Shown: positions 36,306 through 51,856 of the stretch, one piece after another
Layout: each line of letters starts with the position of its first letter
Position numbering within the stretch: position 1 is the first letter of the stretch
NCBI RefSeq assembly: GCF_014200015.1
Contig: NZ_JACHOT010000001.1
Span: 186,001-250,000, forward strand
DNA from: Aminobacter niigataensis
GTDB taxonomy: Bacteria; Pseudomonadota; Alphaproteobacteria; Rhizobiales; Rhizobiaceae
Direction of reading: 5' to 3'
DNA: 64,000 nucleotides
The notes under the pieces: generated by a model
The model's database searches: none
What the model saw: the letters and a program-made list of their open reading frames with translations, nothing else
Told to the model about the DNA's origin: nothing
Position numbers and translations under genes: made by a program

Positions 36306-37226
36306 TCAAACCACCTCGGGTACCATCTCGCGCAGTACACGGCGCAGGATGTTTCGGGTGGCGATTGTGGCGGCTGAGGGCGCGCGGTCGCGGGCGGTGA
36401 CAAGCCGCACCTCGCGTACGATGGCCGGTTCGACCAAGGGACGCGCTACGATGCTGCGGCCCTTCAGCGCCGCCAGAGAATAAGCAGGCAGGATCGCTAT
36501 CCCGGCACCGTTTTCGGCCAGCGAAAGAGCCGTATTTATCTGGTGCACTTCCAGTTGGGGCCGCAGTGGCAGCCCGGCCGACTCGAAGCCGAACTCGGTC
36601 AGCAACCGAATGCTGCTCTCACGCGTCAGTGTGATGATCTGGTGATCTCGAAGCTCGGCCCAGCGGATCTGCTGGCGTCCGGCGAATTCGTCATCGGGGG
36701 TGCAGAAAACCATCAGGCTATCCTGCAGCCCCGGCTGAGAGTCGAGCCCCGCTTCGCCCGGAGAGAAAGTACCGACACCGAGATCGCAGCGGCCGCTTCT
36801 TACCTGCTCGACAATGATGTCGGTGCTGACATCCTCGATGCGCAGGACTAGCTCGGAATGTGCAGCCGCAACTTCGCGTAGAACGCGCGGCAGGATCGTG
36901 CCGGCGATAAGCGGTGGCGCGGCAATTCGCACGAGGCCGCGTTTCAGGCTGCTGAGGTCGCGCACATATTCGGCTGCGCGATCGATTTCGTTCAGGCCGG
37001 CAAGGGCACCGGTTGCGAAGGCACGCCCGGCGTCGGTCATATCGACCCGCCGGGTCGTGCGGTCGAAAAGCCTTGCACCTAGCACCAATTCGAGATCGCG
37101 GATCGTATGCGAGAGATTGGCTTGAGAGGTCTGCATACTCTCGGCCGCGCGGGAGAAATTTCCCAACTCGACCACAGCCTTGAAGGATTCGATTTGACGC
37201 AAAGTCGGGCGCATCGGCAAACTCAC
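36306..37226 (-). CDS. LysR-type regulator of the adjacent catabolic cluster
   Basis: A 306-residue LysR protein. The N-terminal winged helix reads TLRQIESFKAVVELGNFSRAAESMQTSQANLSHTIRDLELVLGARLFDRTTRRVDMTDAGR, and the effector domain is at about residues 95-300. It starts with GTG at 37226 (AGGACATAA before it); an ATG at 37214 is an alternative. It is divergent from the DapA-like gene with a 222-base gap, so it probably controls that cluster in response to a pathway compound. Confidence 0.9.
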   Translation of the reverse strand: MSLPMRPTLRQIESFKAVVELGNFSRAAESMQTSQANLSHTIRDLELVLGARLFDRTTRRVDMTDAGRAFATGALAGLNEIDRAAEYVRDLSSLKRGLVRIAAPPLIAGTILPRVLREVAAAHSELVLRIEDVSTDIIVEQVRSGRCDLGVGTFSPGEAGLDSQPGLQDSLMVFCTPDDEFAGRQQIRWAELRDHQIITLTRESSIRLLTEFGFESAGLPLRPQLEVHQINTALSLAENGAGIAILPAYSLAALKGRSIVARPLVEPAIVREVRLVTARDRAPSAATIATRNILRRVLREMVPEVV

Positions 37227-37241
37227 TTATGTCCTATCCTT

Positions 37242-37260
37242 CATGAATATATACCGAATG
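37242..37260. promoter_or_regulatory. Candidate LysR-type operator
   Basis: CATGAATATATACCGAATG is an imperfect dyad (CAT-N13-ATG) with a T-N11-A core, in the intergenic gap between the LysR gene and the DapA-like gene. Confidence 0.35.
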
Positions 37261-37448
37261 TTCGCCTTCACACATGAAAAAAAATGGGGCCCGATGTCAC
37301 AGGATTTGTCACGGCAGTGATTGAGGGGAGGAGATGTTTTTGGGCGGCCATGAGCACTGCCTGAGCCAAGTTTGCCGCGCCAGAACGGGCCCACTCTTCC
37401 TAGACAAGCACGCTACCGTCCGGTGCCGGACGACGATGAGGAACGCAT

Positions 37449-38973
<1,525 letters not shown>

Positions 38974-39054
38974 CTATGACCTCCGACAGCACCGTTTCAA
39001 TCGGGGCTGATAGGCAAAAGACTGACAATAACAAGCAACAGGGGACCTCGCATC

Positions 39055-40218
39055 GTGAAGAAGACCATTCTCGCATTCAGCCTCTTCGTGGGCCTTGCAA
39101 CCTCGGCCCTTGCCCAAGAGCCGGTGAAGATCGGCGTCATCACCACACTTTCCGGCCCGGGTGGCTATCTCGGCAAGGACGTCCGCGACGGCATGCAGCT
39201 TGCCATCAACGAGGAAGGCGGCAAGCTCGGCGGCGTGCCGGTCGACCTTATCGTCGAGGATGACGCAGCCAAGCCGGCGAATGGCCGCCAAATTGCCGAA
39301 AAATTCATGAACGAGCAGGGCGTCAAGCTGCTGTCCGGCATCATCTTCTCGAACATCGCCGGCGCGACCGTGCCGGACATCGTCGACAATGGCGCCCTCT
39401 ATATCAGCGCCAATGCCGGCCCTTCGGGTCTCGCCGGCAAGGAGTGCAATGAGAACTACTTCGTCGTCTCGTGGCAGAACGACACGCTGCACGAGGTGTC
39501 CGGCATAGCGGCCAAGGATCTCGGCTACAAACGCGCCTTCCTGCTGGCGCCGAACTACCAGGCCGGCAAGGACGCGCTCGAAGGTTTCAAGCGCACATTC
39601 AATGGCGAAATCATCGGCGAGATCTACACCCAGCTGGAGCAGACGGACTACTCGGCTGAAATGGCGCAGATCCGCGCCGCGGCACCCGACGTGGTCTATC
39701 AGTTCCATCCGGGCGGGCTCGGCATCGCCTTCGTGCGCCAGTACCAGCAGGCCGGTCTTCTGGGCAAATTCCCTATGGTGCTTTCGGAGGCCAACGCCGA
39801 TGGCGTAATGCTGAAAGCCCTTGGTGACGCGGTGATCGGCCAGGTCGCTACCAGCCATTGGGCCGAGGACCTGGACAACGAGGCGAACAAGGCCTTCGTT
39901 TCGGGCTGGAAGGCCGCCTATCCCGACCGTCCGCTGACCACTTACGCATCGCAGGGGTATGACACCGCGAAGCTGATCGCCTCTGCTCTCAAGGCAACCG
40001 GCGGCGTCGACGACATCGATGCGGTCCGCACGGCGCTGAGAAAGGCAGATTTCGTCTCTGTCCGGGGCGATTTCGCGTTCGGCCCCAACCAGCATCCGGT
40101 GCAGGACTGGCACCTCCTGGAGGTGGTCAAAGGCGAGAATGGCGTGGCGACCACGGTGACCCGCAAGAAATTGGCGGAAGATATTGGCGACAGCTATTCG
40201 GCCGCCTGCAAGCTCTGA
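39055..40218 (+). CDS. Branched-chain-type ABC transporter substrate-binding protein
   Basis: A 387-residue periplasmic protein: signal peptide (ILAFSLFVGLATSALA), then the type-I binding fold with VKIGVITTLSGPGGYLGKDVRDGMQLAINE, IAEKFMNEQGVKLLSG and YASQGYDTAKLIASALKATGG. It belongs to the HAAT/Leu-Ile-Val group, which also includes importers for aromatic acids. The start is GTG with GGGGA upstream. It is 81 bases after the dioxygenase gene. Together with the next four genes it probably imports the pathway substrate. Confidence 0.92.
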   Translation: MKKTILAFSLFVGLATSALAQEPVKIGVITTLSGPGGYLGKDVRDGMQLAINEEGGKLGGVPVDLIVEDDAAKPANGRQIAEKFMNEQGVKLLSGIIFSNIAGATVPDIVDNGALYISANAGPSGLAGKECNENYFVVSWQNDTLHEVSGIAAKDLGYKRAFLLAPNYQAGKDALEGFKRTFNGEIIGEIYTQLEQTDYSAEMAQIRAAAPDVVYQFHPGGLGIAFVRQYQQAGLLGKFPMVLSEANADGVMLKALGDAVIGQVATSHWAEDLDNEANKAFVSGWKAAYPDRPLTTYASQGYDTAKLIASALKATGGVDDIDAVRTALRKADFVSVRGDFAFGPNQHPVQDWHLLEVVKGENGVATTVTRKKLAEDIGDSYSAACKL

Positions 40219-40302
40219 CCTGCACCAGCCACCGAACCGGCCGAACTGGGTGCGCAAGCTGCGCATCCACGGATCGCATTACCCAGCGCAGGGCTTGCCG
40301 AT

Positions 40303-41217
40303 ATGACACTCATTCTCGAACAGCTTCTGAACGGTTTGCTTTACGGCATCACACTGTTCCTGCTGGCTGCCGGTCTGACCCTGATCTTCGGCATCATGGG
40401 CCTGATCAACCTCGCCCATGGCTCGCTTTACATGGTGGGTGCGTTTGTGGGGGCCTGGGTGGCCAGCCAGACAGGAAGCTTCTGGCTGGGCCTGCCTGCG
40501 GCGCTGGCCGGCGCCATGCTGGCCGGTTTTGCGATTGAACTGGGTGTCATGCGACGGCTGTATGCGCGCGACCACCTGGATCAGGTGCTAGCGACCTTTG
40601 CGCTGATCCTGATCTTCAACGAGCTCACCGTCCTGCTTTTCGGCCGTGAGCCGATGTTCGTCGAGCTTCCCGCCTCGATCGCAACGCCGATCGAGCTGCT
40701 GCCCGGCCTGGTTTATCCGCCCTTCCGTCTTTTGATCATCGCAGCCGGCCTTGGAGTGGCCCTGGGCTTGTATTTCCTGATCAATCGGACGCGCATCGGC
40801 ATGCTCGTGCGCGCCGGCTCGACCAATCGCGACATGGTCCGCGCGCTCGGTGTTGATATCCGGCTGCTCTACACGATGATCTTCGGCCTTGGCGCGCTGC
40901 TCGCGGGACTGGCGGGTTTCATGACCAGTCCGGTGCTGGCGGTCCAGGTCGGCATGGGCGAGCAGATCCTGCTGGCAACCTTTGTCGTGGTGGTCATCGG
41001 CGGCGTTGGTTCGATCAAGGGCGCCTTCGTGGCCGGCATCCTGCTCGGCATCGTCGACACATGTCTGCGTGCATTCCTCCCAGGAGTGTTGCGCGAGATC
41101 ATGGCCGGTCCGGAGGCTGACGCTCTGGGAGTCGGCATCGCATCCATGGGAATTTATCTGATGATGGGTATCGTGCTTCTGTTCCGGCCCCAGGGCCTGT
41201 TTCAGGCAGGCGGCTGA
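40303..41217 (+). CDS. Branched-chain-type ABC transporter permease (LivH-like)
   Basis: A 304-residue inner-membrane permease with family motifs FGIMGLINLAHGSLYMVGAFVGAW, INRTRIGMLVRAGSTNRDMVRALGVDI and FVVVVIGGVGSIKGAFVAGILLGIVDT. It begins 84 bases after the binding protein and ends two bases before the next permease start. Confidence 0.93.
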   Translation: MTLILEQLLNGLLYGITLFLLAAGLTLIFGIMGLINLAHGSLYMVGAFVGAWVASQTGSFWLGLPAALAGAMLAGFAIELGVMRRLYARDHLDQVLATFALILIFNELTVLLFGREPMFVELPASIATPIELLPGLVYPPFRLLIIAAGLGVALGLYFLINRTRIGMLVRAGSTNRDMVRALGVDIRLLYTMIFGLGALLAGLAGFMTSPVLAVQVGMGEQILLATFVVVVIGGVGSIKGAFVAGILLGIVDTCLRAFLPGVLREIMAGPEADALGVGIASMGIYLMMGIVLLFRPQGLFQAGG

Positions 41218-41219
41218 GC

Positions 41220-42206
41220 ATGCGGCAACATCTTATCTTCATCGCAGCGGCGATCGTGTGCCTGTCCGTCCTGCCCTTGGTGGCAGAGGCGACGGGCCAG
41301 CTGGCGCTGGTCGGCCTGACGTCGCGCATCATGATCTATGCGATTGCAGCAGCCAGCCTGAACTTCATCCTCGGCTATGGCGGGATGGTTTCGTTTGGCC
41401 ATGCGGCCTTCTTCGGTATCGGCAATTACGTGGTTGGCATCCTGTATTTCCACCATGCCGAGGGCGTGCCGCTCTGGGGCTTCATCCCCGGTTCCAACCA
41501 GCTTTTGATAACGCTGCCAACAGCGGTCCTCGTGGCTGGGTTCGCGGCGCTGGTCATTGGCTCGCTGGCGCTGCGCACCAGGGGCGTGCAATTCATCATG
41601 ATCACGCTGGCGTTTGCGCAGATGCTCTATTTCTTTTTCGTCTCGCTCAAGACCTATGGCGGCGAGGACGGTGTCATCGTGCGGGGCGCCAATGATCTCT
41701 TTGCGCTGAGCCTGCGCGACAAGACAGCGATGTATTACGTCATCCTTGTCGTGATGGTGTTGTTCTTCGCATTTCTTTGGCGGGTCGTGCACTCCTCGTT
41801 CGGCACGGTCCTGTCGGGCATAAGGCAAAACGAACGACGGATGACCGCGATGGGCATCAGCTCCTATCGCTACAAGCTTTACGGCTTCGTCCTGGCCGGA
41901 ATGGGCGCAGGCCTCGCCGGAGCTTTGATGGCGGTGTTCATGCGCTTTGCCAGCCCGGACACGCTCCATTGGACCAAGTCCGGCGAACTGCTGATCATGG
42001 TCATCCTCGGCGGTGTCGGCACTTTCTTCGGCCCAATCTTGGGCGCGGCGGCCTTCCTGATCCTGCAAACCTACCTCGCTGCCTGGACTGAGCACTGGCA
42101 GCTTGCCATGGGTCTGATCCTGCTGGGGATCGTGCTTGGCACCAAGGGTGGCGCCAAGGGGCTGTTCGACTCCATTGCCCGTAAGCTTCGGACGGAGCCA
42201 AGATGA
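41220..42206 (+). CDS. Branched-chain-type ABC transporter permease (LivM-like)
   Basis: A 328-residue inner-membrane permease with LNFILGYGGMVSFGHAAFFGIGNYVVG, the FGTVLSGIRQNERRMTAMGISSYRYK loop that contacts the ATPase, and MVILGGVGTFFGPILGAAAF. Its last codons overlap the next gene start (ATGA). Confidence 0.93.
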   Translation: MRQHLIFIAAAIVCLSVLPLVAEATGQLALVGLTSRIMIYAIAAASLNFILGYGGMVSFGHAAFFGIGNYVVGILYFHHAEGVPLWGFIPGSNQLLITLPTAVLVAGFAALVIGSLALRTRGVQFIMITLAFAQMLYFFFVSLKTYGGEDGVIVRGANDLFALSLRDKTAMYYVILVVMVLFFAFLWRVVHSSFGTVLSGIRQNERRMTAMGISSYRYKLYGFVLAGMGAGLAGALMAVFMRFASPDTLHWTKSGELLIMVILGGVGTFFGPILGAAAFLILQTYLAAWTEHWQLAMGLILLGIVLGTKGGAKGLFDSIARKLRTEPR

Positions 42207-42958
42207 ACACCATCCTGGCAATCGACGATCTGGTGAAACGTTTCGCAGGTCTGACCGCGACAGATCATGTGTCGTTGAACGTGGCGACCGGGCATATCCA
42301 TGCCTTGATCGGCCCCAACGGGGCCGGCAAGTCCACGCTGATCAACCTCCTCTGTGGCGAGCTGATCCCCAACGAGGGGCGGATAACGCTTCTGGGTGAA
42401 GACATTACCGCGTGTCCCGCCGCGGAGCGGATGAAGCGCGGCCTTGCGCGGACATTCCAGATCACGAACCTGCTGAACGATTTCACCGTGCAGCAAAACA
42501 TCAGCCTGGCGGTGCAAGCGAGGCAGGGAAACAACTTTCGCATCCTCGATACCGCGCGAGGGCGTGTTTCCATCCTGACCGAAGTGGATGAACTTCTAGC
42601 TGCCAGCCGCCTCGAGCCGCGTCGCGATGTGGTGGCGGGCAACCTTTCGAGCGGCGAACGCAAGCAGCTCGAGCTAATGATGGCGCTTGCTGGCCGGCCG
42701 AAGCTCCTGCTTCTCGATGAGCCGATGGCGGGGCTCGGCCGTTTGGAAAGCCAGCAGATGATCGAGACCCTGCGAGGTCTCCGCGGCAAGGTCTCCATGC
42801 TCCTGATCGAGCACGACATGGAAGCGGTCTATGCGCTGGCCGACCGTATCTCGGTCCTGGTCTATGGGCGGGTGATCCTGACCGGGACCGCCGACGATAT
42901 CCGGGCCAGCGATGAAGTGCGGGACGCCTATCTGGGGTTGGAGGACGAACTGTGTTGA
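42203..42958 (+). CDS. Branched-chain-type ABC transporter ATP-binding protein (LivG-like)
   Basis: A 251-residue ATPase: Walker A GPNGAGKST, ABC signature LSSGERKQLELMMAL (with S-S-G-E where S-G-G-Q is usual), Walker B LLLLDEPMAGLG and switch His in IEHDMEAV. The start overlaps the upstream permease by four bases, and the stop overlaps the second ATPase by seven. Confidence 0.92.
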   Translation: MNTILAIDDLVKRFAGLTATDHVSLNVATGHIHALIGPNGAGKSTLINLLCGELIPNEGRITLLGEDITACPAAERMKRGLARTFQITNLLNDFTVQQNISLAVQARQGNNFRILDTARGRVSILTEVDELLAASRLEPRRDVVAGNLSSGERKQLELMMALAGRPKLLLLDEPMAGLGRLESQQMIETLRGLRGKVSMLLIEHDMEAVYALADRISVLVYGRVILTGTADDIRASDEVRDAYLGLEDELC

Positions 42959-43653
42959 AGGTGCAGGGGCTCCAGGCTGCCTATGACCATGGCCAGGTGC
43001 TGTTCGATGTAAGCTTCGAGGTCAATGAAGGCGAACTCGTCACATTGATGGGCCGCAACGGGATGGGCAAGACCACCACGATCCGCGCCATCATGGGCCT
43101 TGTTCCGCCTGCGGGCGGACGGATCGAGATCGGGGGTCACGAGACTACCGGATTTTCCCCGGAGCGGGTGGCGCGGCTTGGCGTTGGCCTCGTGCCCGAA
43201 GGAAGGCAGGTGTTCCCGACGCTCACCGTGCGCGAGAATCTGGTCGCGACCGCTGCCAACCGCTCGGGGCGTTCGGACCCTTGGACTCTCGAGAAAGTCT
43301 ATGGACTTTTCCCTCGTCTGCGGGAGCGGACGAGCCAGATTGCAGGGACGCTCTCTGGCGGCGAACAGCAGATGTTGGCGGTTGGGCGTGCGCTGATGAC
43401 CAATCCGCATCTTCTCATCCTCGACGAGGCGACCGAGGGGTTGGCCCCGGTGATCCGGCTGGAGATCTGGAACTGCATCACCCGATTGCGCGCGCTTGGC
43501 CAGTCGATCCTGTTGATCGACAAGAACTTGGCAGTGCTGAAGAAACTCGCGGACCGGCATTACATCATAGAAAAAGGCCACGTCGTCTGGTCCGGCACCG
43601 GCACCGATCTCACGCGCGACCATGACAAGGTGCATTCCTATGTCGGTGTCTGA
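42952..43653 (+). CDS. Branched-chain-type ABC transporter ATP-binding protein (LivF-like)
   Basis: A 233-residue ATPase: Walker A GRNGMGKTT, ABC signature LSGGEQQMLAVGRALM and Walker B LLILDEATEGLAP. The expected His after the switch reads IDKNLAVL, so the usual catalytic His position appears replaced, as in some LivF proteins. The start is GTG at 42952 (or the following TTG), overlapping the LivG stop. Confidence 0.92.
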   Translation: MLKVQGLQAAYDHGQVLFDVSFEVNEGELVTLMGRNGMGKTTTIRAIMGLVPPAGGRIEIGGHETTGFSPERVARLGVGLVPEGRQVFPTLTVRENLVATAANRSGRSDPWTLEKVYGLFPRLRERTSQIAGTLSGGEQQMLAVGRALMTNPHLLILDEATEGLAPVIRLEIWNCITRLRALGQSILLIDKNLAVLKKLADRHYIIEKGHVVWSGTGTDLTRDHDKVHSYVGV

Positions 43654-44446
43654 GGATATCTGCCTCATCGGATGGGGCGCGATCGGTGCCCGGGTGGCAG
43701 CGCTCCTGGCCGAGCGACGGAGCCCGGTTCGTATCGTTGCCGTGGCGGTGCGTGATGCGAGCCGCAGTCGTCGGGACCTGCCCAAGGAAGCGGCTTTGAT
43801 TTCCCATCCGGCGGAGCTGGCGGGTGTCAAAGCGAAACTCGCCGTCGAGGTCGCGGGGCGTGACAGCGTCCTGCCCTGGGGTCGCGTGGTGCTTGAGGCC
43901 GGGATGGATTTCGCCATTTCCTCGACCTCGGCCTTTGTCGATGATCGCGTGCTGGCCGAGCTGACAAAACTGGCCCAGGCTCGTGATGCAAAGCTTCTGG
44001 TGCCGCCGGGCGCCTTGGGCGGGATCGATGCGCTGGCTGCGGCTGCGCGGCTGGGCCTTGCCTCGGTAGAACACCGGATCATCAAACCGGCGCGAGCATG
44101 GGCCGGCACCATAGCCGAGAACCGCTGCGACCTTGAGGCGCTAACCGAACCGACGGTGTTCTATGCGGACACTGCACGGGCAGCGGCCGATGCCTTTCCA
44201 CAGAATGCGAACGTGGCGGTGATCACCTCGCTGGCGGGGATAGGTCTCGACCGGACACGGGTCTCGCTTGTTGCTGATCCGACCGCGCTTTTCAACACAC
44301 ATGAGATACACGCTGAAGGCGATTTCGGGCGGATGGAAATCCGACTGGAAAACCGCCCGCTGGCGACCAACCCGAAATCCTCGGAGATGACCGCGCTGAA
44401 CCTGGTGAGGCTGATCGAGAACCGGGTGCTGCCGCTGCTGATCTGA
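43640..44446 (+). CDS. Aspartate dehydrogenase-like NAD(P)-dependent enzyme
   Basis: A 268-residue protein of the aspartate dehydrogenase (NadX) family: nucleotide-binding CLIGWGAIGARVAALL, EVAGRDSVLPWGRVVLEAG, and the domain-2 motif LVPPGALGGIDALAAAARLG. The C-terminal part contains NPKSSEMTALNLVRLIENRVLPL. It could form iminoaspartate or reduce/oxidise a different amino or imino acid from ring cleavage. The start overlaps the LivF gene by 14 bases, so it is the end of the first transcription unit. An in-frame ATG at 43622 is an alternative. Confidence 0.85.
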   Translation: MSVSEDICLIGWGAIGARVAALLAERRSPVRIVAVAVRDASRSRRDLPKEAALISHPAELAGVKAKLAVEVAGRDSVLPWGRVVLEAGMDFAISSTSAFVDDRVLAELTKLAQARDAKLLVPPGALGGIDALAAAARLGLASVEHRIIKPARAWAGTIAENRCDLEALTEPTVFYADTARAAADAFPQNANVAVITSLAGIGLDRTRVSLVADPTALFNTHEIHAEGDFGRMEIRLENRPLATNPKSSEMTALNLVRLIENRVLPLLI

Positions 44447-44949
44447 CCACACCTTGATATGGGGTCTGCTGCGGATCCGGTCACCGAGACATGGCAGTGC
44501 TTTCCATGTCCATGAATGCGGACCGCAGCGCCCCCATTCACCTAGCGCCGCTCACGGCAAGATCATGAGCTAGCGGCGGCTGCGATGTGGCCCGTGCGAT
44601 ACCCCCCCACCTACTGGCGCCGCCCCCTGCGCTCTGCCCGACATTGGCTCCTCAGTGGCGGCTGAAAGCGGCACGCCGATCGAACGTGCCTCATCGCACC
44701 GCCTGTTACCCGCGTGCAGGTCTTAGGCTGGCGCTGTTCCGTAAGGCGCATGGGAAAGAAGGGCGTGATGCAATGCATCTCCCATCCCGGTTCGCCACAA
44801 CCAATTCATGTGAAAAATGACATAGATTTATATGAGTCTTGAGAATTGTCTCATGAGTGGGAAAGGGCGACTATTCTGCACGAACTGAAGCATCCATGGC
44901 TCGGGTTCATCGATTTCGAAAGCCGTCGAGTACATTAGGGACTATTTTC
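44447..44949. other. Intergenic region, no gene seen
   Basis: About 500 bases between the aspartate-dehydrogenase-like gene and the aldehyde dehydrogenase gene. I see no coding frame or clear remnant. The last 130 bases are AT-rich with an ATGAG-N13-CTCAT dyad near 44832-44855, which may be a promoter or operator for the second transcription unit. Confidence 0.35.
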
Positions 44950-46377
44950 ATGCAGATTTCCGATGTCCGTCTCTTCATCGGCGGCGAGTGGCGCAAGACC
45001 AAAGAAACGCTTCCCGTCATCAACCCCGCCGACGAGCAAATGATCGGCACGGTCGCTGTGGCCGAGACCTCCGATCTCGAAGCCGCGGTAAGCGCCGCTG
45101 CCGAAGGCTTCCGTGTCTGGTCCCGCACCTCGCCGGCCGAGCGCGCCCGCATCATGCTGAAGGCTGCGGCGCTGATGCGCGAGCGGATCGAAGAGATCGC
45201 CCTCTCGATTACCCTGGAGAACGGCAAGACCCTCAACGAAGCACGGCTTGAGGTAATCCGCGGCTGTGAATTCTTCGAATGGGACGCCGGCGAAGCGGTA
45301 CGCTTCTACGGCAGGGTAATCCCGAGTGCGCCTGGCATCCGCTACATCGTGCTGCACGAGCCAATCGGCCCGGTAGCAGGTTTTGCGCCCTGGAATTTCC
45401 CGATGAGCCAACCGGCGCGCAAGATTGCCGGGGCGTTGGCAGCGGGCTGCTCGATCATCCTGAAATCCTCGGAAGAGACGCCGACCGGCGCTACCCATAT
45501 CGCCAGAGCGTTTGTCGATGCAGGACTTCCTGCCGGCGTTCTGAACCTGGTCTATGGCATCCCGTCGCGGATATCGGAGTTTCTGATTCCGCGTCCCGAA
45601 ATCCGTGCCATCGCGTTTACTGGCTCGACGCCGGTCGGCAAGCATCTCACCGAGTTGGCGGCGCGCTACATGAAACCCGCGCTGATGGAACTGGGCGGCC
45701 ATGCTCCGGTAGTCGTCTGCGAGGATGCCGATCCGGTCGCTGCCGGCATTGCTTCCGCCAGTCGAAAATATCGCAACGCTGGTCAGGTTTGCACGTCGCC
45801 GACGCGGTTCTTTGTGCATGAGGCGCTTTATGATCGCTTCGTCACCGCCTTCACCGAAACCGCTGCCAAGGTACGTGTTGGCAATGGGCTGGATCCCGAG
45901 ACCACGATGGGGCCGGTTGCAAACAACCGCCGCATCGCTGCGCTGGAAGAACTGGTGGCGGACGCGCAGTCGCGCGGCGCACGCTTGCTCTTCGGTGGCA
46001 GCCGGCTCAAGAACAATGGATATTTCTTCCCACCGACGGCACTCGCCGACTTGCCCGACGATGCTCGGGTGATGCGTGAAGAACCCTTCGGCCCGCTGGC
46101 AGTGATCAATCCGGTTGTGTCGATCGACGAGGCCATCGACAAGGCGAACAGCCTGCCCTTCGGGCTTGCCGCCTACGGCTTCACCAACTCGGTCGCAAAT
46201 GCCGACAGGCTGATGAGTGGGCTCGAGGCCGGCAATATTTCGATCAACACGCTTGAGGCTTCGGTGGCCGAGACGCCCTTCGGGGGGGTCAAGGAAAGCG
46301 GCCTCGGGCGGGAGGGCGGTACCGAGGGACTGCATCATTATACGGTGGTCAAGAACGTCTCGTGCCGGATCCTTTGA
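44950..46377 (+). CDS. NAD(P)-dependent aldehyde dehydrogenase (succinate-semialdehyde dehydrogenase-like)
   Basis: A 475-residue ALDH: substrate-side FAPWNFPMSQPARKIAGALAAG, catalytic Glu in MELGGHAPVVV, and catalytic Cys in YRNAGQVCTSPTRFFV. The C-terminal FGGVKESGLGREGG is typical. Closest in style to the SSADH/GabD group. In this cluster it may oxidise a semialdehyde or an aldehyde released by oxidative dealkylation. The start at 44950 was chosen because the conserved part begins there; a longer frame exists upstream. Confidence 0.92.
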   Translation: MQISDVRLFIGGEWRKTKETLPVINPADEQMIGTVAVAETSDLEAAVSAAAEGFRVWSRTSPAERARIMLKAAALMRERIEEIALSITLENGKTLNEARLEVIRGCEFFEWDAGEAVRFYGRVIPSAPGIRYIVLHEPIGPVAGFAPWNFPMSQPARKIAGALAAGCSIILKSSEETPTGATHIARAFVDAGLPAGVLNLVYGIPSRISEFLIPRPEIRAIAFTGSTPVGKHLTELAARYMKPALMELGGHAPVVVCEDADPVAAGIASASRKYRNAGQVCTSPTRFFVHEALYDRFVTAFTETAAKVRVGNGLDPETTMGPVANNRRIAALEELVADAQSRGARLLFGGSRLKNNGYFFPPTALADLPDDARVMREEPFGPLAVINPVVSIDEAIDKANSLPFGLAAYGFTNSVANADRLMSGLEAGNISINTLEASVAETPFGGVKESGLGREGGTEGLHHYTVVKNVSCRIL

Positions 46378-46513
46378 TTGGCGTGCAAGGCACGGGCCCT
46401 TTAGCGCGGATTAATCGGAAGAAGTTATGGAGCCGCGCTGCCTACTGATTGAGGGCCGCAACGAGGCCGGACAGGTGGAGTACGCCGAGAACCGGCGCGA
46501 CAGGGAGAATAAA

Positions 46514-47713
46514 ATGATCGACCGACCAGAAAGCGACGTGGATTTGTTCACGACCGAGGTCATGAAGGATCCTTATCCGGTCTATCGTATGTTGCGGGAC
46601 CTTGGACCGGCGGTTTGGCTGGCCAAGCACCAAGTCTGGTGCATCACCCGATATGAGGGGGTTAAGCGTGTGCTGGGCGACTACCGCACCTTCACCACTT
46701 CGAAGGGCGTGGCGATGGACCCTGCGGTGAACGAAGCGACCTCCGGTCCCGGCCGCGCCAATTCGCTGACCAGCGATCCCCCGTTGCATGACGAAATTCG
46801 CCGCGTCACAGGCGCGCCGCTGACGCCGCGGGCGCTGGCGGAGATCAAAGAGCAGATCGAGACCACCGCGCGTAATCTGGTCGACGATCTATGCAAACGG
46901 CGCACGGTGGACGGTATGGTCGATGTGGCGCAAGTACTGCCGCTGACCATCGTCTCAGAAATGGTTGGCCTTCCAGAAGAGGGCAAGAAGTCGATGCTGC
47001 GTTGGGCGGCGGCGACCTTCAACGCTATGGGGCCCATGAACGAGCTTGGTTCGGAGGCGCTGCCACAGATTCGCGAACTGCATCAGTTCTGTATCAACGA
47101 TGCGGTACCGGGTAAGCTCAAGGCCGACGGCTGGGCCGATCGGATCTACCAAGCTGCGGCGCGGGGCGAGATTCCGGCACAACAATGCCCCGGCATGATG
47201 CGGGAATACATCGGCCCGAGCCTGGATACGACAATCTTTGCCACCGGCCATCTGCTGCGCCACCTGGGCGACAATCCGGATCAGTGGCAGCTTCTTAGAA
47301 ACAATCGGTCGTTGCTGCCAGGTGCCATTAACGAGGCACTGCGGATGGAGGCTCCAATCCGGCTGTTTAGCCGCTATGTTCGCGCCGAATCGACGTTCGA
47401 CGAAATCGTCATTCCGGAAGGCGCACGGCTTCTGGTGCTTTATGCCTCGGCCAACCGCGACGAGCGGAAATGGCAGGATCCGGACAGGTTCGACATCACG
47501 CGCAAGAACGGCGACCATGTGGCGTTCGGCTTCGGCATTCACACTTGCGCTGGCATGCACCTAGCCAAGCTGGAAATCACCTCGCTGCTGAACGCCATGC
47601 TCGACCGCATCGCGAGGTTTGAGGTCGGCGAACCAGTGATCTCGATGAACAACACACTGCGCGGATACGATCGTCTGCCGCTGACAATCTATCCGGCTGA
47701 AGTTGCGGTGTGA
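46514..47713 (+). CDS. Cytochrome P450 (CYP199-like)
   Basis: A 399-residue soluble P450. The heme loop is FGFGIHTCAGMHLAK, with ligand Cys345. The K-helix is EALR, and the I-helix reads IGPSLDTTIFATGH, where SLDTT resembles the GLDTT of CYP199A enzymes that demethylate or hydroxylate benzoates. GGGAG lies seven bases before the ATG at 46514. It is followed after 10 bases by a reductase gene, giving a self-contained two-component system. Substrate inferred only from context: an aromatic, possibly a methoxy- or aminobenzoate. Confidence 0.93.
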   Translation: MIDRPESDVDLFTTEVMKDPYPVYRMLRDLGPAVWLAKHQVWCITRYEGVKRVLGDYRTFTTSKGVAMDPAVNEATSGPGRANSLTSDPPLHDEIRRVTGAPLTPRALAEIKEQIETTARNLVDDLCKRRTVDGMVDVAQVLPLTIVSEMVGLPEEGKKSMLRWAAATFNAMGPMNELGSEALPQIRELHQFCINDAVPGKLKADGWADRIYQAAARGEIPAQQCPGMMREYIGPSLDTTIFATGHLLRHLGDNPDQWQLLRNNRSLLPGAINEALRMEAPIRLFSRYVRAESTFDEIVIPEGARLLVLYASANRDERKWQDPDRFDITRKNGDHVAFGFGIHTCAGMHLAKLEITSLLNAMLDRIARFEVGEPVISMNNTLRGYDRLPLTIYPAEVAV

Positions 47714-47723
47714 GGTAGTTGGC

Positions 47724-48707
47724 ATGATCGAGGAAAATATCATGCAGCGCGCCGATCCCGAATGGCAGCGCGTCCGCATCGCCGGCCGGGTCAAGGAATC
47801 GGAACGGATCATCTCCCTGGAACTGGTGGCTGCAAGCGGTGGCGATCTTGCGCCGTTCGAGGCTGGCGCGCATGTCGACGTGCGGATCAGCCCAACAACT
47901 ACGCGGCAATATTCGCTTCTGAACAATCCTTCCGAGCGGCATCGGTACCGGATAGGAATCTTGCGCGAACGCGAGTCCCGTGGGGGGTCGGAAACGATCC
48001 ACGGTTCCTTCTTGCCGGGGCTGGAAATCGAGGTCTCACCACCGCGAAACCATTTTCCGCTCAACCCGGATGCCAGCGAGGTTCTGTTGCTCGCTGGCGG
48101 TGTTGGTGTGACGCCGATCATGTCGATGGCACAGAAGCTTGCCGAAGATCGCGTACCCTTCACCATGCATTATTGTGTGCGGAGCGAAACGTGCACCGCT
48201 TTTGCCCGTGAACTGTTGGACGGACCATTCGGCGATCGGGTGGTCCTTCATATCGATACGGGACCCGAAGCGCAGCGGTTCTCCGCCATGGATGCTCTCA
48301 AGGGAGTGCAGCCGGGCTCGCATCTCTATGTCTGCGGTCCTGGAGGTTTCATCGATCATGTAGTGAAGATGGCGGCGTTCGCTGGATGGGAAGGGCACCA
48401 GATCCATCTTGAGCGCTTTACCGCCGCTCCTTTGGTCTCTGAGGCCTTTACAGTCGTGGCGCAGCGTAGCGGCATTGAGGTTCAGGTCTCTGTTGGCCAG
48501 CGCATTTCGGAGGCCCTGCGCGAGGCTGGCGTCGAGATCGAAATGTCTTGCGAGGCAGGTGTGTGCGGCACCTGTTACACGCGGGTGCTGGAAGGGGAGC
48601 CCGACCACAAGGACAGTTTCCAAACCAATGCCGAATTGGCTGCGAACGAGGGAATAGCAATCTGCTGCTCGGGCTCGAAGTCGCCTCGGCTGGTGCTTGA
48701 TGTCTAA
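47724..48707 (+). CDS. PDR/VanB-family flavin and 2Fe-2S reductase
   Basis: A 327-residue reductase in phthalate-dioxygenase-reductase order: FMN domain (RQYSLLNNPSE), NAD domain (LLAGGVGVTPIMSMAQ and LYVCGPGGFIDHV), then a C-terminal plant-type ferredoxin domain with C276, C281, C284 and C314. It can carry electrons from NAD(P)H to the P450 next to it. GAGGT lies nine bases before the chosen ATG. Such reductases are usually paired with Rieske oxygenases. Pairing with a P450 is less common but known for this fold in other arrangements. Confidence 0.93.
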   Translation: MIEENIMQRADPEWQRVRIAGRVKESERIISLELVAASGGDLAPFEAGAHVDVRISPTTTRQYSLLNNPSERHRYRIGILRERESRGGSETIHGSFLPGLEIEVSPPRNHFPLNPDASEVLLLAGGVGVTPIMSMAQKLAEDRVPFTMHYCVRSETCTAFARELLDGPFGDRVVLHIDTGPEAQRFSAMDALKGVQPGSHLYVCGPGGFIDHVVKMAAFAGWEGHQIHLERFTAAPLVSEAFTVVAQRSGIEVQVSVGQRISEALREAGVEIEMSCEAGVCGTCYTRVLEGEPDHKDSFQTNAELAANEGIAICCSGSKSPRLVLDV

Positions 48708-48852: not shown

Positions 48853-48960
48853 CCGAGACTAATTCTCGGCCCTGGTGCACCTCTGGCGAGTGAGCCATCG
48901 GAAGCCGATCGCCTTAGACTCCGGCTTCCACATTCCAGCGAACCTGAAGACGTTCTTCAG
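48853..48960. terminator. Cluster of hairpins between convergent genes
   Basis: Three inverted repeats: CCGAGA/TCTCGG (48853-48869), GGAAGCC/GGCTTCC (48900-48929) and CCTGAAGA/TCTTCAGG (48942-48960). They lie between the reductase (+) and uxuA (-) ends and probably act as bidirectional ends; none has a strong T run. Nothing coding is seen in 48708-48956. Confidence 0.4.
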
Positions 48961-50159
48961 GAGCTCTTTCCGATCGCGTGGATCATCCCACGCAATTCTG
49001 CCATTGCCTTGACCAGTCCGATAGGCGTGTATCCCGGTACGAAGTCCGCTCTTTCCTGATCGTAGAGGATTCGACAGGCGTGGTCTGCGCGGTAGGGGAT
49101 CTCCCAGTCGGCAATGCCTTGCCTGCGCCTGCGTGCCTCTTCCGCCATCAGAAGCGTGAGAACATCGTGGAGGTCGAACGCGCCTGTGCCGCCCAGATGC
49201 TCAGCCTCGGTGAAGCTTCCGAATTCGTCACGGAAACGTATGCGCCGGGGATGGGCATAAAAGATGCGCTGACCGAACCTGTCGATGAAATCCGTCAGCA
49301 CATTGTCGCGCCTGCTGGCGAGAGAACCCGAGCAGAAGATCATGCCGGCGCGCGGCGACGACACGCCATCGAAGATTCTCGCAAAATCTTCCAGGGTGCT
49401 GGCGATGCGCGGCAGGCCGCACAATGGAATCGGCGGATCGTCGGGATGGATGGCAAACACCGCTCCCTCCGCCTCGCACGTGCGCGCCACCTCGCCGAGG
49501 AACTCGATCAGGTTTTGCCGATAGGCTTCGGTTCCCACCTTTTGATAGGCACCGAGCAATGAATGGAACTCGCCGCTGCCATATTGCCCGGGACCGCCTG
49601 GCAGGCCGCGCGTAAGCATGGTCAGCAACTCCTGCCACCGTTGCGCTGGTGTTTCGTGATGGCGCCGGCGGGCCGCCACGGCGAGTTCCGGATCGATCTC
49701 CTCCTCGGCGCCGGGCCGCTTCAGCAGATGGATGTCGAACACCGCAAAATCGACAGCATCGAAGCCCAACGCCTCGGCGCCGCTTTCAAGCCTTGTGTCC
49801 AGCCCGGTCCGAACCCAATCGAGCAGCGGCATCACGGTAAAGTTGATACGGCGTACGCCCGCTTGCGCCAGCCGCCGCACCGTTTCCTGGAAATTTGCGG
49901 TCAGCCTCGCGCTGCTCTGGCGGCCCAGCTTGATGTCGTCGTGAATGGCGATGCCGCCGAGCGTATCCCATTCCAGCGGTGTTTGCCCGGTGGGAGCGGT
50001 CTGGACAAGTCTCTTCAACTCGTCGATAGCATCTGCCTCCCACAGGCATCCAGGGGGCAGGTGGGACAGGCTGGCTTCGATGCTGGTCGCACCCGACTGG
50101 CGTATCCAGTCGATCGTCATCGGATCCTGTGGACCGAACCACCGCCATGTTGCGCGCAT
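48957..50159 (-). CDS. uxuA: Mannonate dehydratase
   Basis: A 400-residue UxuA enzyme that dehydrates D-mannonate to 2-keto-3-deoxygluconate. Motifs: RATWRWFGPQDPM, GCLWEADAI, VFAIHPDDPPIPLCGLPRI, SPRAGMIFCSGSL (C and S near metal), FYAHPRRIRF and FDLHDVL. GGGAGGAAACAACTCG leads to the ATG. It is divergent from the PucR gene, with only 98 bases between the starts. It fits the sugar-acid theme of the neighbouring operon. Confidence 0.94.
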   Translation of the reverse strand: MRATWRWFGPQDPMTIDWIRQSGATSIEASLSHLPPGCLWEADAIDELKRLVQTAPTGQTPLEWDTLGGIAIHDDIKLGRQSSARLTANFQETVRRLAQAGVRRINFTVMPLLDWVRTGLDTRLESGAEALGFDAVDFAVFDIHLLKRPGAEEEIDPELAVAARRRHHETPAQRWQELLTMLTRGLPGGPGQYGSGEFHSLLGAYQKVGTEAYRQNLIEFLGEVARTCEAEGAVFAIHPDDPPIPLCGLPRIASTLEDFARIFDGVSSPRAGMIFCSGSLASRRDNVLTDFIDRFGQRIFYAHPRRIRFRDEFGSFTEAEHLGGTGAFDLHDVLTLLMAEEARRRRQGIADWEIPYRADHACRILYDQERADFVPGYTPIGLVKAMAELRGMIHAIGKSS

Positions 50160-50257
50160 CGAGTTGTTTCCTCCCTTACTGAAATGAATTTTTGGACCGC
50201 TGAAAGAAAAATTTGCACCATGGCGCGCACGCCCGAAGTAATCCCTGCCGAGGCTCC

Positions 50258-51856
50258 ATGCTGAGCCTGCGCGAAATACTGGATTGGGAAATCCTCTCCG
50301 GCCACACGGTCATAGCCGGCACAGGCTCTCTGGCCGTCGATGTCCGGTCGGTCACCGTCATCGACGCTCCTGATGCGGTGAACTGGGTAAAGCCGCACGA
50401 ATTCGTCGTGACCAGCACCTATCCGGTCCAGCAAAGCCCGGATGCGCTGGTTGTCCTGATCGAACAGCTCGCCGCGCGCAATGCCGCGGGTCTTGGCGTC
50501 AAGCTGACGAGGTACCTGCGCGAATTTCCCGACAACGCGTACCGCCGCGCCGAGGAGCTTGGATTTCCGATCATTTCCCTGCCGGGGCCGCTGGCGTGGA
50601 GCGATCTGATCGGCAGGGTGTTTTCCCATGGCGGTCAGCAACAGGGCAAGGAAGCGGCTTATCTCAGCGCCATCTACCGCGCCTTTTCGCAGCATCGGAC
50701 GGGCATTGGCTCGCTGCGCGAGCTGTTCGAACTGGTGGCCGGCTTCATCAATCTGCCGGTGGTCCTTGCCCTTGAAAATGAAGCGGGCTTGCAGATCGAA
50801 AGTCGGGGGGTCACGGCGGCGGAGGCTGAAATGCTGGCGGAAGCCCTCATCGAGGGTGCGGCGACGGGCGCCCAGCCGGACGACGTACCTCTGCGCATGA
50901 CGGTCGCTGGCACGAAGGTCGTGGTGGCGCGTTCGGGAATGGGGGCGAACGGCGGCGGCATGGTGGCTGTCATCGAGCGCGAACTGAGCGCTTCCGAGCC
51001 CGACCTCGAGTGCTTGCGCCTCTCCGTACACCTCCTGCTGACGCTGGTGGACGCCAATGCTGGCACGCGCGCCAATCTTGCGAGCAATGCAAAACTGCTC
51101 GGCGATCTGCTTGATCCCATGCTTTCGCGCGAAGCCAGGAATGTTCTCATTGCCAAGGCTCTGCCTCCGGCAAATGGATGGCATGCGGTGGTTGCCCGCA
51201 TTTTTGATGCCGATACGCTCGATGGCGCACTGTTCAGGCTGCGCCTGCGCCAGTTTTCGCGGCGCCACAAGGCGTTGTTGCTCGAGGAAGAGGATGGCAG
51301 CGAGTACGTCATTGCCGTGCCGGTGCCAGGAGCCGATCCCCGTTCCAGCGAAGCCGTGCTGCGCGAACTGCATCAGGTTTTCGAGCGGCAACTCGAACAC
51401 GCCGATGGCCTTCTCTATGGTCTTGGCCAGTCCGGACCGGCGGACCTGTCCGAGGTAGCTATCCTGCGGCGTGAGGCCAGGGAAGCAATGACTTTCGGCA
51501 TCAGGCTGAACGGCTTCAATCGCATCAGCCGGCATGAGGACATGCTGCTGCTGCGGCTGCTCGCGCATCCGTCCGTCATCGAGGAAAGCCGCCCTGGCTT
51601 CCTGCGACTTCTCGAACCGCTGCTGGCCATGGGCGACCAGGGAGCGACGCTCATGGAAACGATGAAGGTATGGCTGCGGGAGGATGAAAGCATGCCTCGC
51701 ACCGCCGAGCTTCTGGGCCTCCATGTCAACACGGTCCGCCAGAGGCTGGAGCGATGCCGCTCGGTGCTCGGCCTGACCGATTTCAGGACCGATACGCGGC
51801 TTCGCCTTTACGCGGCACTGCAGCTTCTTCCCATGCTGACGAACGCAGAGGGCTGA
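50258..51856 (+). CDS. PucR-family transcriptional regulator
   Basis: A 532-residue regulator. The N-terminal PucR domain (LSLREILDWEILSGHTVIAGTGSL and WVKPHEFVVTSTYPV) is followed by a GAF-like middle region and a C-terminal PucR helix-turn-helix (TLMETMKVWLREDESMPRTAELLGLHVNTVRQRLERCRSVLG). Family members control purine, amino acid or sugar-acid catabolism. It lies between uxuA and the nine-gene operon, so it is the likely regulator of both. Confidence 0.92.
   Translation: MLSLREILDWEILSGHTVIAGTGSLAVDVRSVTVIDAPDAVNWVKPHEFVVTSTYPVQQSPDALVVLIEQLAARNAAGLGVKLTRYLREFPDNAYRRAEELGFPIISLPGPLAWSDLIGRVFSHGGQQQGKEAAYLSAIYRAFSQHRTGIGSLRELFELVAGFINLPVVLALENEAGLQIESRGVTAAEAEMLAEALIEGAATGAQPDDVPLRMTVAGTKVVVARSGMGANGGGMVAVIERELSASEPDLECLRLSVHLLLTLVDANAGTRANLASNAKLLGDLLDPMLSREARNVLIAKALPPANGWHAVVARIFDADTLDGALFRLRLRQFSRRHKALLLEEEDGSEYVIAVPVPGADPRSSEAVLRELHQVFERQLEHADGLLYGLGQSGPADLSEVAILRREAREAMTFGIRLNGFNRISRHEDMLLLRLLAHPSVIEESRPGFLRLLEPLLAMGDQGATLMETMKVWLREDESMPRTAELLGLHVNTVRQRLERCRSVLGLTDFRTDTRLRLYAALQLLPMLTNAEG

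Follow-up and report, generated by a model that had tools for sequence, protein, structure and literature searches.

The DNA analysed here is a stretch of 64,000 nucleotides from Aminobacter niigataensis (contig NZ_JACHOT010000001.1, positions 186,001 to 250,000), called the window in what follows, and this work deals with a group of genes at its positions 36306-46377 that may form a catabolic cassette for 3-hydroxyanthranilate (3-HAA) working without the decarboxylase ACMSD. A LysR-type regulator (36306..37226, minus strand; PF00126 and PF03466) diverges from the cassette, all other genes of which lie on the plus strand. The run begins with a lyase of the DapA superfamily (37449..38405; PF00701), proposed as a substitute for ACMSD that would process 2-amino-3-carboxymuconate semialdehyde (ACMS), and with 3-hydroxyanthranilate 3,4-dioxygenase (3-HAO, gene HAO; 38425..38973). 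A Liv/Urt-type ATP-binding cassette (ABC) importer follows, made up of a substrate-binding protein (39055..40218; model matches below their cut-offs), a LivH-like permease (40303..41217; UrtB/LivH models, also below cut-offs), a LivM-like permease (41220..42206), a LivG-like ATPase (42203..42958) and a LivF-like ATPase (42952..43653). Both permeases and both ATPases are kept in cassette loci; the names LivM, LivG and LivF were given from position and from an annotated cassette (locus L196, where the counterparts are a branched-chain amino acid ABC permease and ABC ATP-binding proteins), not from the family-library scan. Next come an enzyme resembling aspartate dehydrogenase (AspDH; 43622..44446), a gap of 503 bases (44447..44949) and an aldehyde dehydrogenase (ALDH; 44950..46377) which resembles succinate semialdehyde dehydrogenase (SSADH) and not 2-aminomuconate semialdehyde dehydrogenase (AMSDH).

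The frame list and the family scans recovered every gene named in an earlier sequence-only reading of this DNA, in the order and on the strands given there, the LysR gene being divergent. The 503-base gap between the two halves was reproduced with the ALDH start at 44950, moved from a frame that opens at 44857. The 3-HAO start was likewise moved from 38398 to the ATG at 38425, preceded by GGAG, and that of the neighbouring P450 from 46427 to 46514; the reductase frame opens at 47703.

Judged by its sequence, the window 3-HAO is a true family member. Two NCBIfam 3-HAO models (NF009763 and TIGR03037) match it above cut-off (275.5 against 220 bits, and 261.9 against 145.95 bits), and alignment with 1yfu (E 1.8e-73), a bacterial 3-HAO of known structure, shows the His, Glu and Arg positions and four Cys positions to be kept, which we take to be the metal, substrate and rubredoxin-like Cys positions; the full set of active-site residues claimed before is thus present. 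The AspDH-like enzyme has the features expected of a predicted aspartate dehydrogenase: the Asp_DH_C domain (PF01958), a score of 240.7 bits for NF009828 against a cut-off of 177, and the conserved family His (His227), which at least 95% of the 73 stretches under comparison retain. A LysR gene divergent from the DapA-like gene and adjoining it is found elsewhere with 58-73% identity (for instance in loci L009, L023, L026, L030, L048 and L081). The absence of an NbaD-type decarboxylase (ACMSD) was borne out, since no match was found in the window, nor in the whole genome at E<=1e-40. The position of the gap is taken by an alpha/beta hydrolase gene in L026-L029 and L033; a remnant of it was searched for in the 503 bases of the window, and no trace was seen.

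Recurrence of the cassette and its exchange with ACMSD

For comparison, the best 80 of 558 relatives of 3-HAO were retrieved together with no more than 10 kb of flanking DNA to either side, and genes were counted in these 80 HAO loci by tblastn with identity thresholds. This set is biased to close relatives, and it is a phylum-wide draw of 398 genomes that carries the argument. The genes for LysR, the DapA-like enzyme, 3-HAO, the importer, the AspDH-like enzyme and ALDH recur together in several alphaproteobacterial families, so that the gene set is not due to chance. The DapA-like gene is present in 71 of the 80 loci; the counts for other genes are LivH 50, TRAP substrate protein 19, AspDH 58, ALDH 36, molybdenum (Mo) hydroxylase 29, alpha/beta hydrolase 40 and kynureninase 6, and ACMSD, the P450 and the PDR-type reductase were each found in none of the 80. 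In the 54 DapA loci of at least 19 kb, the importer is of the Liv type only in 37 and of the TRAP type only in ten, with both in none and neither in seven. On a Shinella plasmid the genes stand as one compact block (GntR-ABC-kynU-ALDH-LysR-DapA-HAO-AspDH), and the DapA-like gene was found on 47 plasmid records, with sources including soil, plants and sea. Genes that travel together in this way support the earlier idea of a 3-HAO pathway that is fed by an importer, lacks ACMSD and leaves the ring-opened product to the DapA-like, AspDH-like and ALDH enzymes. The unit is nevertheless narrower than first proposed, as it covers window positions 36306-46377 and excludes the P450 and its reductase.

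HAO, the DapA-like gene and ACMSD were searched separately in the 398-genome draw, under the same handles where comparable. HAO was found in 26 genomes, the DapA-like gene in ten and ACMSD orthologues in nine; all 19 of the latter lie within the 26, and the overlap between them is zero. An ACMSD orthologue was defined by at least 40% identity and E<=1e-78, which counts nine of 14 matching genomes and leaves out five at 31-36% identity, none of the five with HAO. Within this draw the DapA-like gene was therefore seen solely in HAO genomes. Fisher tests gave p values of 2e-13 for DapA with HAO and 0.004 for DapA against ACMSD, to be used as a guide only, given that the genomes are treated as independent and their kinship is ignored. 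AspDH is present in 10/10 DapA-type genomes, 1/9 ACMSD-type genomes and 1/7 other HAO genomes, and kynureninase in 24 of the 26.

At the level of the loci, ACMSD, hydroxy-oxovalerate aldolase and acetaldehyde dehydrogenase gave no match in any of 87 DapA stretches, each 7 kb or longer; these represent 86 places, one place in genome G005 being counted twice (L103 and L189), and the genomes behind them may partly coincide. No RidA-type protein was seen among the cassette genes of the window by gene list and family scans. The ACMSD type is represented by L191, which carries a RidA-type protein, HAO, ACMSD, ALDH, hydratase, acetaldehyde dehydrogenase, aldolase and decarboxylase, and by L190, with most of this canonical set. 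In genome G049 (L108) a RidA-type protein, HAO, ACMSD and a formate-tetrahydrofolate ligase are accompanied by the Liv importer and the alpha/beta hydrolase of the DapA type, and therefore the input looks the same. The HAO tree, in which some branches are long (L163, L150) and the deep forks are weak, was used only to place the HAO of G049 and that of the window; in it the G049 row falls inside a group of seven rows (100/99), the remaining ones being of the DapA type. By gene content, then, G049 is a natural exchange of the ACMSD and DapA types. Comparison of the genomes gives good support to the view that the DapA-like enzyme, AspDH and an aldehyde oxidiser take the place that in other HAO loci belongs to ACMSD, AMSDH and the deaminase and to the enzymes of lower meta-cleavage.

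In the passages of PMC10143591 on these enzymes, the HAO-ACMSD-AMSDH trio is part of the kynurenine and 2-nitrobenzoate pathways. The cassette shares with this trio the opening of 3-HAA to ACMS by 3-HAO and an aldehyde-oxidising enzyme, and differs from it in having the DapA-like enzyme, the AspDH-like enzyme and an SSADH-like ALDH or a Mo hydroxylase instead. The 3-HAA catabolic cluster described for Ascomycota, in the relevant part of PMC7842363, comprises 3HAO, ACMSD, AMSDH and a putative deaminase; it is similar in being a cluster for 3-HAA catabolism and different in relying on ACMSD and AMSDH. The words 'aldolase' and 'dihydrodipicolinate' were not found in the main text of PMC7842363, and among the matches listed in the open-access literature no DapA-like or AspDH-like enzyme is reported in 3-HAA breakdown.

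A metallo-beta-lactamase-fold protein, AidB-lactonase-like below cut-off (L099:10300-11262 and L191:8450-9361), is encoded between HAO and the importer in eight congener loci and has a 43% counterpart in the ACMSD-type L191. It may be a further 3-HAA-linked gene.

The DapA-like lyase and the aldehyde step

PF00701 is matched by all 31 aligned members of the DapA-like family, which is tight (60-86% identity to the window protein). For the dapA equivalog model the window protein scores 83.5 bits, with a cut-off of 206.15, and its closest solved relative, N-acetylneuraminate lyase (NAL), is matched with 99 bits only. The Schiff-base Lys177 is kept in 31/31 members. On the other hand, the position of the catalytic Tyr of dihydrodipicolinate synthase (DHDPS) is Phe124 in all 31 or, with an alternative gapping as against NAL, residue 125, which is mostly Leu, Phe or Val; the DHDPS Thr positions correspond to Lys59 and Gln60, again throughout. 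The roles of these residues, namely Schiff base and proton relay, are assumed to be those of DHDPS. Since the Lys is kept and the Tyr/Thr relay is lost, the protein is not a DHDPS and is probably a Schiff-base lyase acting on another substrate. Its likeness to the DapA/NAL superfamily thus lies in PF00701 and the Schiff-base Lys, and its difference in the lost relay and the lack of a close solved relative. The hydratase-aldolases of the NahE/PhdJ type, which split an unsaturated oxo acid into an oxo acid and an aldehyde, belong to the same superfamily.

Two kinds of enzyme alternate at the aldehyde step. In the same 54 long DapA loci (19 kb or more), ALDH only was found in 29 and Mo hydroxylase only in 20, both in none and neither in five; a previous count with looser criteria, covering 81 loci, had given 41, 30, one and nine, respectively. 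In L107, the sole locus with both, the ALDH gene lies several kb off and adjoins another gene set. As aldehyde oxidation is what the two mutually exclusive enzymes have in common, their substrate is likely an aldehyde. The gene directly upstream of DapA in the 80 loci overlaps it in 26/26 pairs when it encodes the Mo hydroxylase and in 10/16 when it encodes ALDH, the ALDH-DapA overlap being of 4 bases with uncertain start codons; in the window the ALDH gene is found downstream of AspDH instead, as in L026-L029. The Mo hydroxylase is a CoxL-type subunit of about 730 amino acids (L073:15580-17763, and 28 further of the 80 loci).

The window ALDH shares 63-80% identity with 43 other members of its cluster and 31-34% with three AMSDH-type proteins, and its best model is SSADH, below cut-off (431.5 against 646.35). 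In the part of PMC4286809 that deals with these residues, Arg464 is described as substrate-binding and, together with Arg120, as strictly conserved in the HMSDH family. With the AMSDH numbering transferred by offset via L191, the equivalent of Arg464 is Ser in 44/44 cassette ALDHs and Arg120 is kept in 43/44 (one gap), so the Arg120/Arg464 pair of a canonical AMSDH is not found in them. Arg306, at a position which is presumably the carboxylate-binding site in SSADH, is present in 44/44. Because Arg464 is lost and Arg306 present, 2-aminomuconate semialdehyde is an unlikely substrate of the cassette ALDH.

A proposed route through ACMS and its rivals

In chemical terms ACMS can be seen as an oxo acid in enamine form that bears a carboxylate at C3, and its imine form as a 3-substituted iminosuccinate. 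A Schiff-base enzyme acting on it could exchange the ammonia for its lysine, which would open the way either to decarboxylation at C3 or to hydration of C3=C4 followed by cleavage of the C3-C4 bond. In the route proposed here, an importer (ABC in the window, TRAP in other genomes) would take up what is presumably a kynurenine-type aromatic, and 3-HAO would open 3-HAA to ACMS. Lys177 of the DapA-like enzyme would then form a Schiff base at the amino-bearing carbon of ACMS or its acid, releasing ammonia, and the enzyme would hydrate C3=C4 and cleave C3-C4 to give oxaloacetate or iminosuccinate and a C3 aldehyde (malonate semialdehyde or its dialdehyde). The ALDH or the Mo enzyme would oxidise the aldehyde, before or after cleavage, and AspDH would recover the C4 part and the nitrogen as aspartate. 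The known reaction of AspDH converts iminosuccinate to aspartate, and the conserved family His is in line with an iminosuccinate-like substrate. Cleavage at C3-C4 would give AspDH this known reaction and the ALDH or Mo enzyme a simple aldehyde; no lower pathway would therefore be needed, and AspDH would be dispensable in some loci.

That the genes at 36306-46377 form an ACMSD-free 3-HAA catabolic cassette, with a DapA-like enzyme cleaving to C4 and C3 parts, is in our judgement evenly balanced between right and wrong. The fuller statement is put forward more tentatively, somewhat on the doubtful side: a hydratase-aldolase of the DapA superfamily would split ACMS or its acid at C3-C4 into a C4 part, recovered together with the nitrogen as aspartate, and a C3 semialdehyde, bypassing ACMSD and meta-cleavage and cutting off quinolinate formation, and in many genomes a single-subunit Mo hydroxylase would do the work of the NAD-dependent ALDH. 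Tryptophan breakdown branches at ACMS, whose ring closure to quinolinate goes ahead if no enzyme removes it first. The fates given for it, in the passages concerned of PMC10143591 and PMC7842363, are ACMSD and quinolinate/NAD. If the cleavage were true, it would be a third enzymatic fate of ACMS and a new reaction in a textbook pathway, with a scope indicated by the DapA-HAO pair in 71 of the best 80 of 558; it would provide functions for DapA-like and AspDH-like families now annotated by superfamily only, and might spare carbon given off as CO2 in the canonical route.

Several observations weigh against this cleavage. With the Tyr and Thr residues of DHDPS replaced, in either gapping, an aldol mechanism needs another acid/base, for which the invariant His118 and His152 are candidates. 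The DapA-like gene is absent from the fetched stretch in nine of the 80 HAO loci, eight of which belong to the 62 that span 19 kb or more. In the 54 full DapA loci, AspDH is below threshold in seven (one of which, L093, has a 32% match) and the aldehyde oxidiser is missing in five. The DapA-like search in the 398-genome draw scored up to five candidates per genome, and 7/26 HAO genomes have neither the DapA-like gene nor ACMSD; in one of these, G474, RidA- and AMSDH-like genes adjoin HAO. A protein with 34-40% likeness to the hydratase/decarboxylase family is encoded in three DapA loci (L059, L071 and L072), and a RidA-family match at 33-35% was seen in four. Finally, TIGR03218 (4-oxalocrotonate decarboxylase) is matched below cut-off in 6/10 DapA-type genomes and has no match in 5/9 ACMSD-type genomes, so that a genome-wide absence of the meta pathway is unproven and the argument rests on the loci.

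The TIGR03218 matches, the exact genomic exchange with ACMSD and the loss of the aldol Tyr would also suit a DapA-like enzyme acting as a Schiff-base decarboxylase that replaces ACMSD and gives 2-aminomuconate or 2-hydroxymuconate semialdehyde, a reaction which the carboxylate beta to the Schiff base may make easy. The ALDH or Mo enzyme would then oxidise the product, and the AspDH-like enzyme would reduce 2-aminomuconate in the manner of an aminomuconate reductase. We hold this to be rather unlikely, as the window ALDH has just 31-34% identity to AMSDH-type proteins, Arg464 is missing in all 44 cassette ALDHs and the lower-pathway aldolase and acetaldehyde dehydrogenase are seen in none of the 87 stretches. 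The constant company of AspDH in the ten DapA-type genomes, and the aminofumarate unit within ACMS, which AspDH might recognise, would fit an enzyme that acts early and reduces ACMS or 2-amino-3-carboxymuconate to a substituted aspartate, leaving a later or side product to DapA. Such a reduction would, however, remove the oxo or imino acid needed for DapA-family chemistry, and the AspDH gene falls below threshold in 7/54 DapA loci; this order of steps appears quite improbable. It could also be thought that 3-HAO serves quinolinate and NAD synthesis and that its neighbours are unrelated, ACMS closing to quinolinate non-enzymatically according to the corresponding passage of PMC10143591. Yet genes for the importer, DapA, AspDH and ALDH or Mo hydroxylase accompany HAO in locus after locus, and in the draw the DapA gene was found solely in HAO genomes, which leaves very little room for this explanation.

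A further possibility, put forward in the sequence-only reading, is that a P450 (46514..47713, plus strand) and a PDR-type reductase (47724..48707, plus strand; C-terminal 2Fe-2S, Fer2 at residues 254-323) make 3-HAA for the cassette from a methoxy- or N-substituted anthranilate. The pair is adjacent to the cassette and co-directional with it, and the P450 was rightly called CYP199-like, being nearest to CYP199 structures (9g9q, E 4.9e-78); this is the closest family by sequence, formal CYP naming by identity not having been applied. One relative of the P450 lies near a gene for S-(hydroxymethyl)glutathione dehydrogenase, which would fit formaldehyde released by demethylation. Moreover, the flavin monooxygenase and the alpha/beta hydrolase found beside the cassette in 8/9 congeners have no match in the genome of the window at the thresholds used, and since the former is lacking, the P450 could conceivably be a local stand-in for it. 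Co-occurrence speaks otherwise. Either gene is found in 0/80 HAO loci. Among 151 genomes (its own and 150 relatives), with orthologues defined by at least 38% identity, the P450 has orthologues besides the window in G061, G063, G066, G114 and G124, and HAO is present in none of these five, G021 (E 7e-4) being left out of the HAO search of the relatives as a non-orthologue. The nine genomes of the same genus have no P450 orthologue (best matches 25-29%), although eight of them have HAO. By the refuting condition set in the sequence-only reading itself, a joint pathway fails as a general system, the pair is rejected as a pathway part as a general rule, and its role as a feeding step to 3-HAA is distinctly improbable; P450 and reductase are probably a separate neighbour, unrelated to the cassette.

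Input, neighbouring genes and origin

The cassette probably belongs to kynurenine-type metabolism, an assignment based on a cluster elsewhere in the same genome and on the kynU block of the Shinella plasmid. This tryptophan-kynurenine cluster (L188; contig C6, 174500-194400) carries tryptophan 2,3-dioxygenase, kynureninase and a paralogue of the Liv importer, 42-58% identical to that of the window, with 51% for the substrate-binding protein. It also encodes a member of the benzoate-CoA-ligase family, whose score falls just short of the cut-off, and a salicylyl-CoA-hydroxylase/oxidoreductase-type protein which we take to be of the 2-aminobenzoyl-CoA type. No pointer was found to methoxy-anthranilates, which had been suggested as the input; the context indicates kynurenine/tryptophan.

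In L099:3251-5270 a flavin monooxygenase gene adjoins that of a PcaD-like alpha/beta hydrolase beside the cassette, and both occur in 5/80 HAO loci. The flavin monooxygenase of the congeners has no model support as a kynurenine 3-monooxygenase, no kynurenine 3-monooxygenase model having been searched. The alpha/beta hydrolase, with matches to Abhydrolase_3/BD-FAE (Pfam) and, below cut-off, to NCBIfam lipase/esterase models, is not claimed as a proven kynurenine formamidase; one member has the motif HGGYW, which is presumably linked to such a reading.

Regarding the P450, the adjoining reductase is likely its partner. CYP199 enzymes carry out benzoate O-demethylation with a ferredoxin and a ferredoxin reductase; they are the nearest solved P450s, and the window P450 differs from them in adjoining a PDR-type reductase. 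Among the relatives, separate ferredoxin and reductase genes adjoin the P450 in L134, L197 and L198 and a ferredoxin gene in L138, and no redox gene was identified beside that of L137. In G066 (L136:9662-11929), which lacks HAO, one frame of 755 amino acids joins a CYP199-like P450 to a PDR-type reductase. This natural fusion supports the view that the window reductase serves the P450, and the earlier description of a P450 next to its own reductase is consistent with it. To the right of the reductase, a UxuA-type mannonate dehydratase (minus strand) diverges from a PucR-type regulator (48957-51856); as these genes are near 0/80 HAO loci, they are regarded as a separate unit outside the cassette.

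The cassette was probably acquired horizontally, because the window HAO is nearer to that of Brucella/Ochrobactrum-, Shinella- and Ensifer-type loci (84-88% identity, with 82-83% in one or two Brucella records) than to that of the congeners (75-77%). In the HAO tree the window row stands in a set of ten rows (95/88), apart from the congener row L003. The gene order in the window is also that of the Brucella/Ochrobactrum, Shinella and Ensifer types; one congener, G005, likewise has LysR divergent from DapA and ALDH after AspDH.

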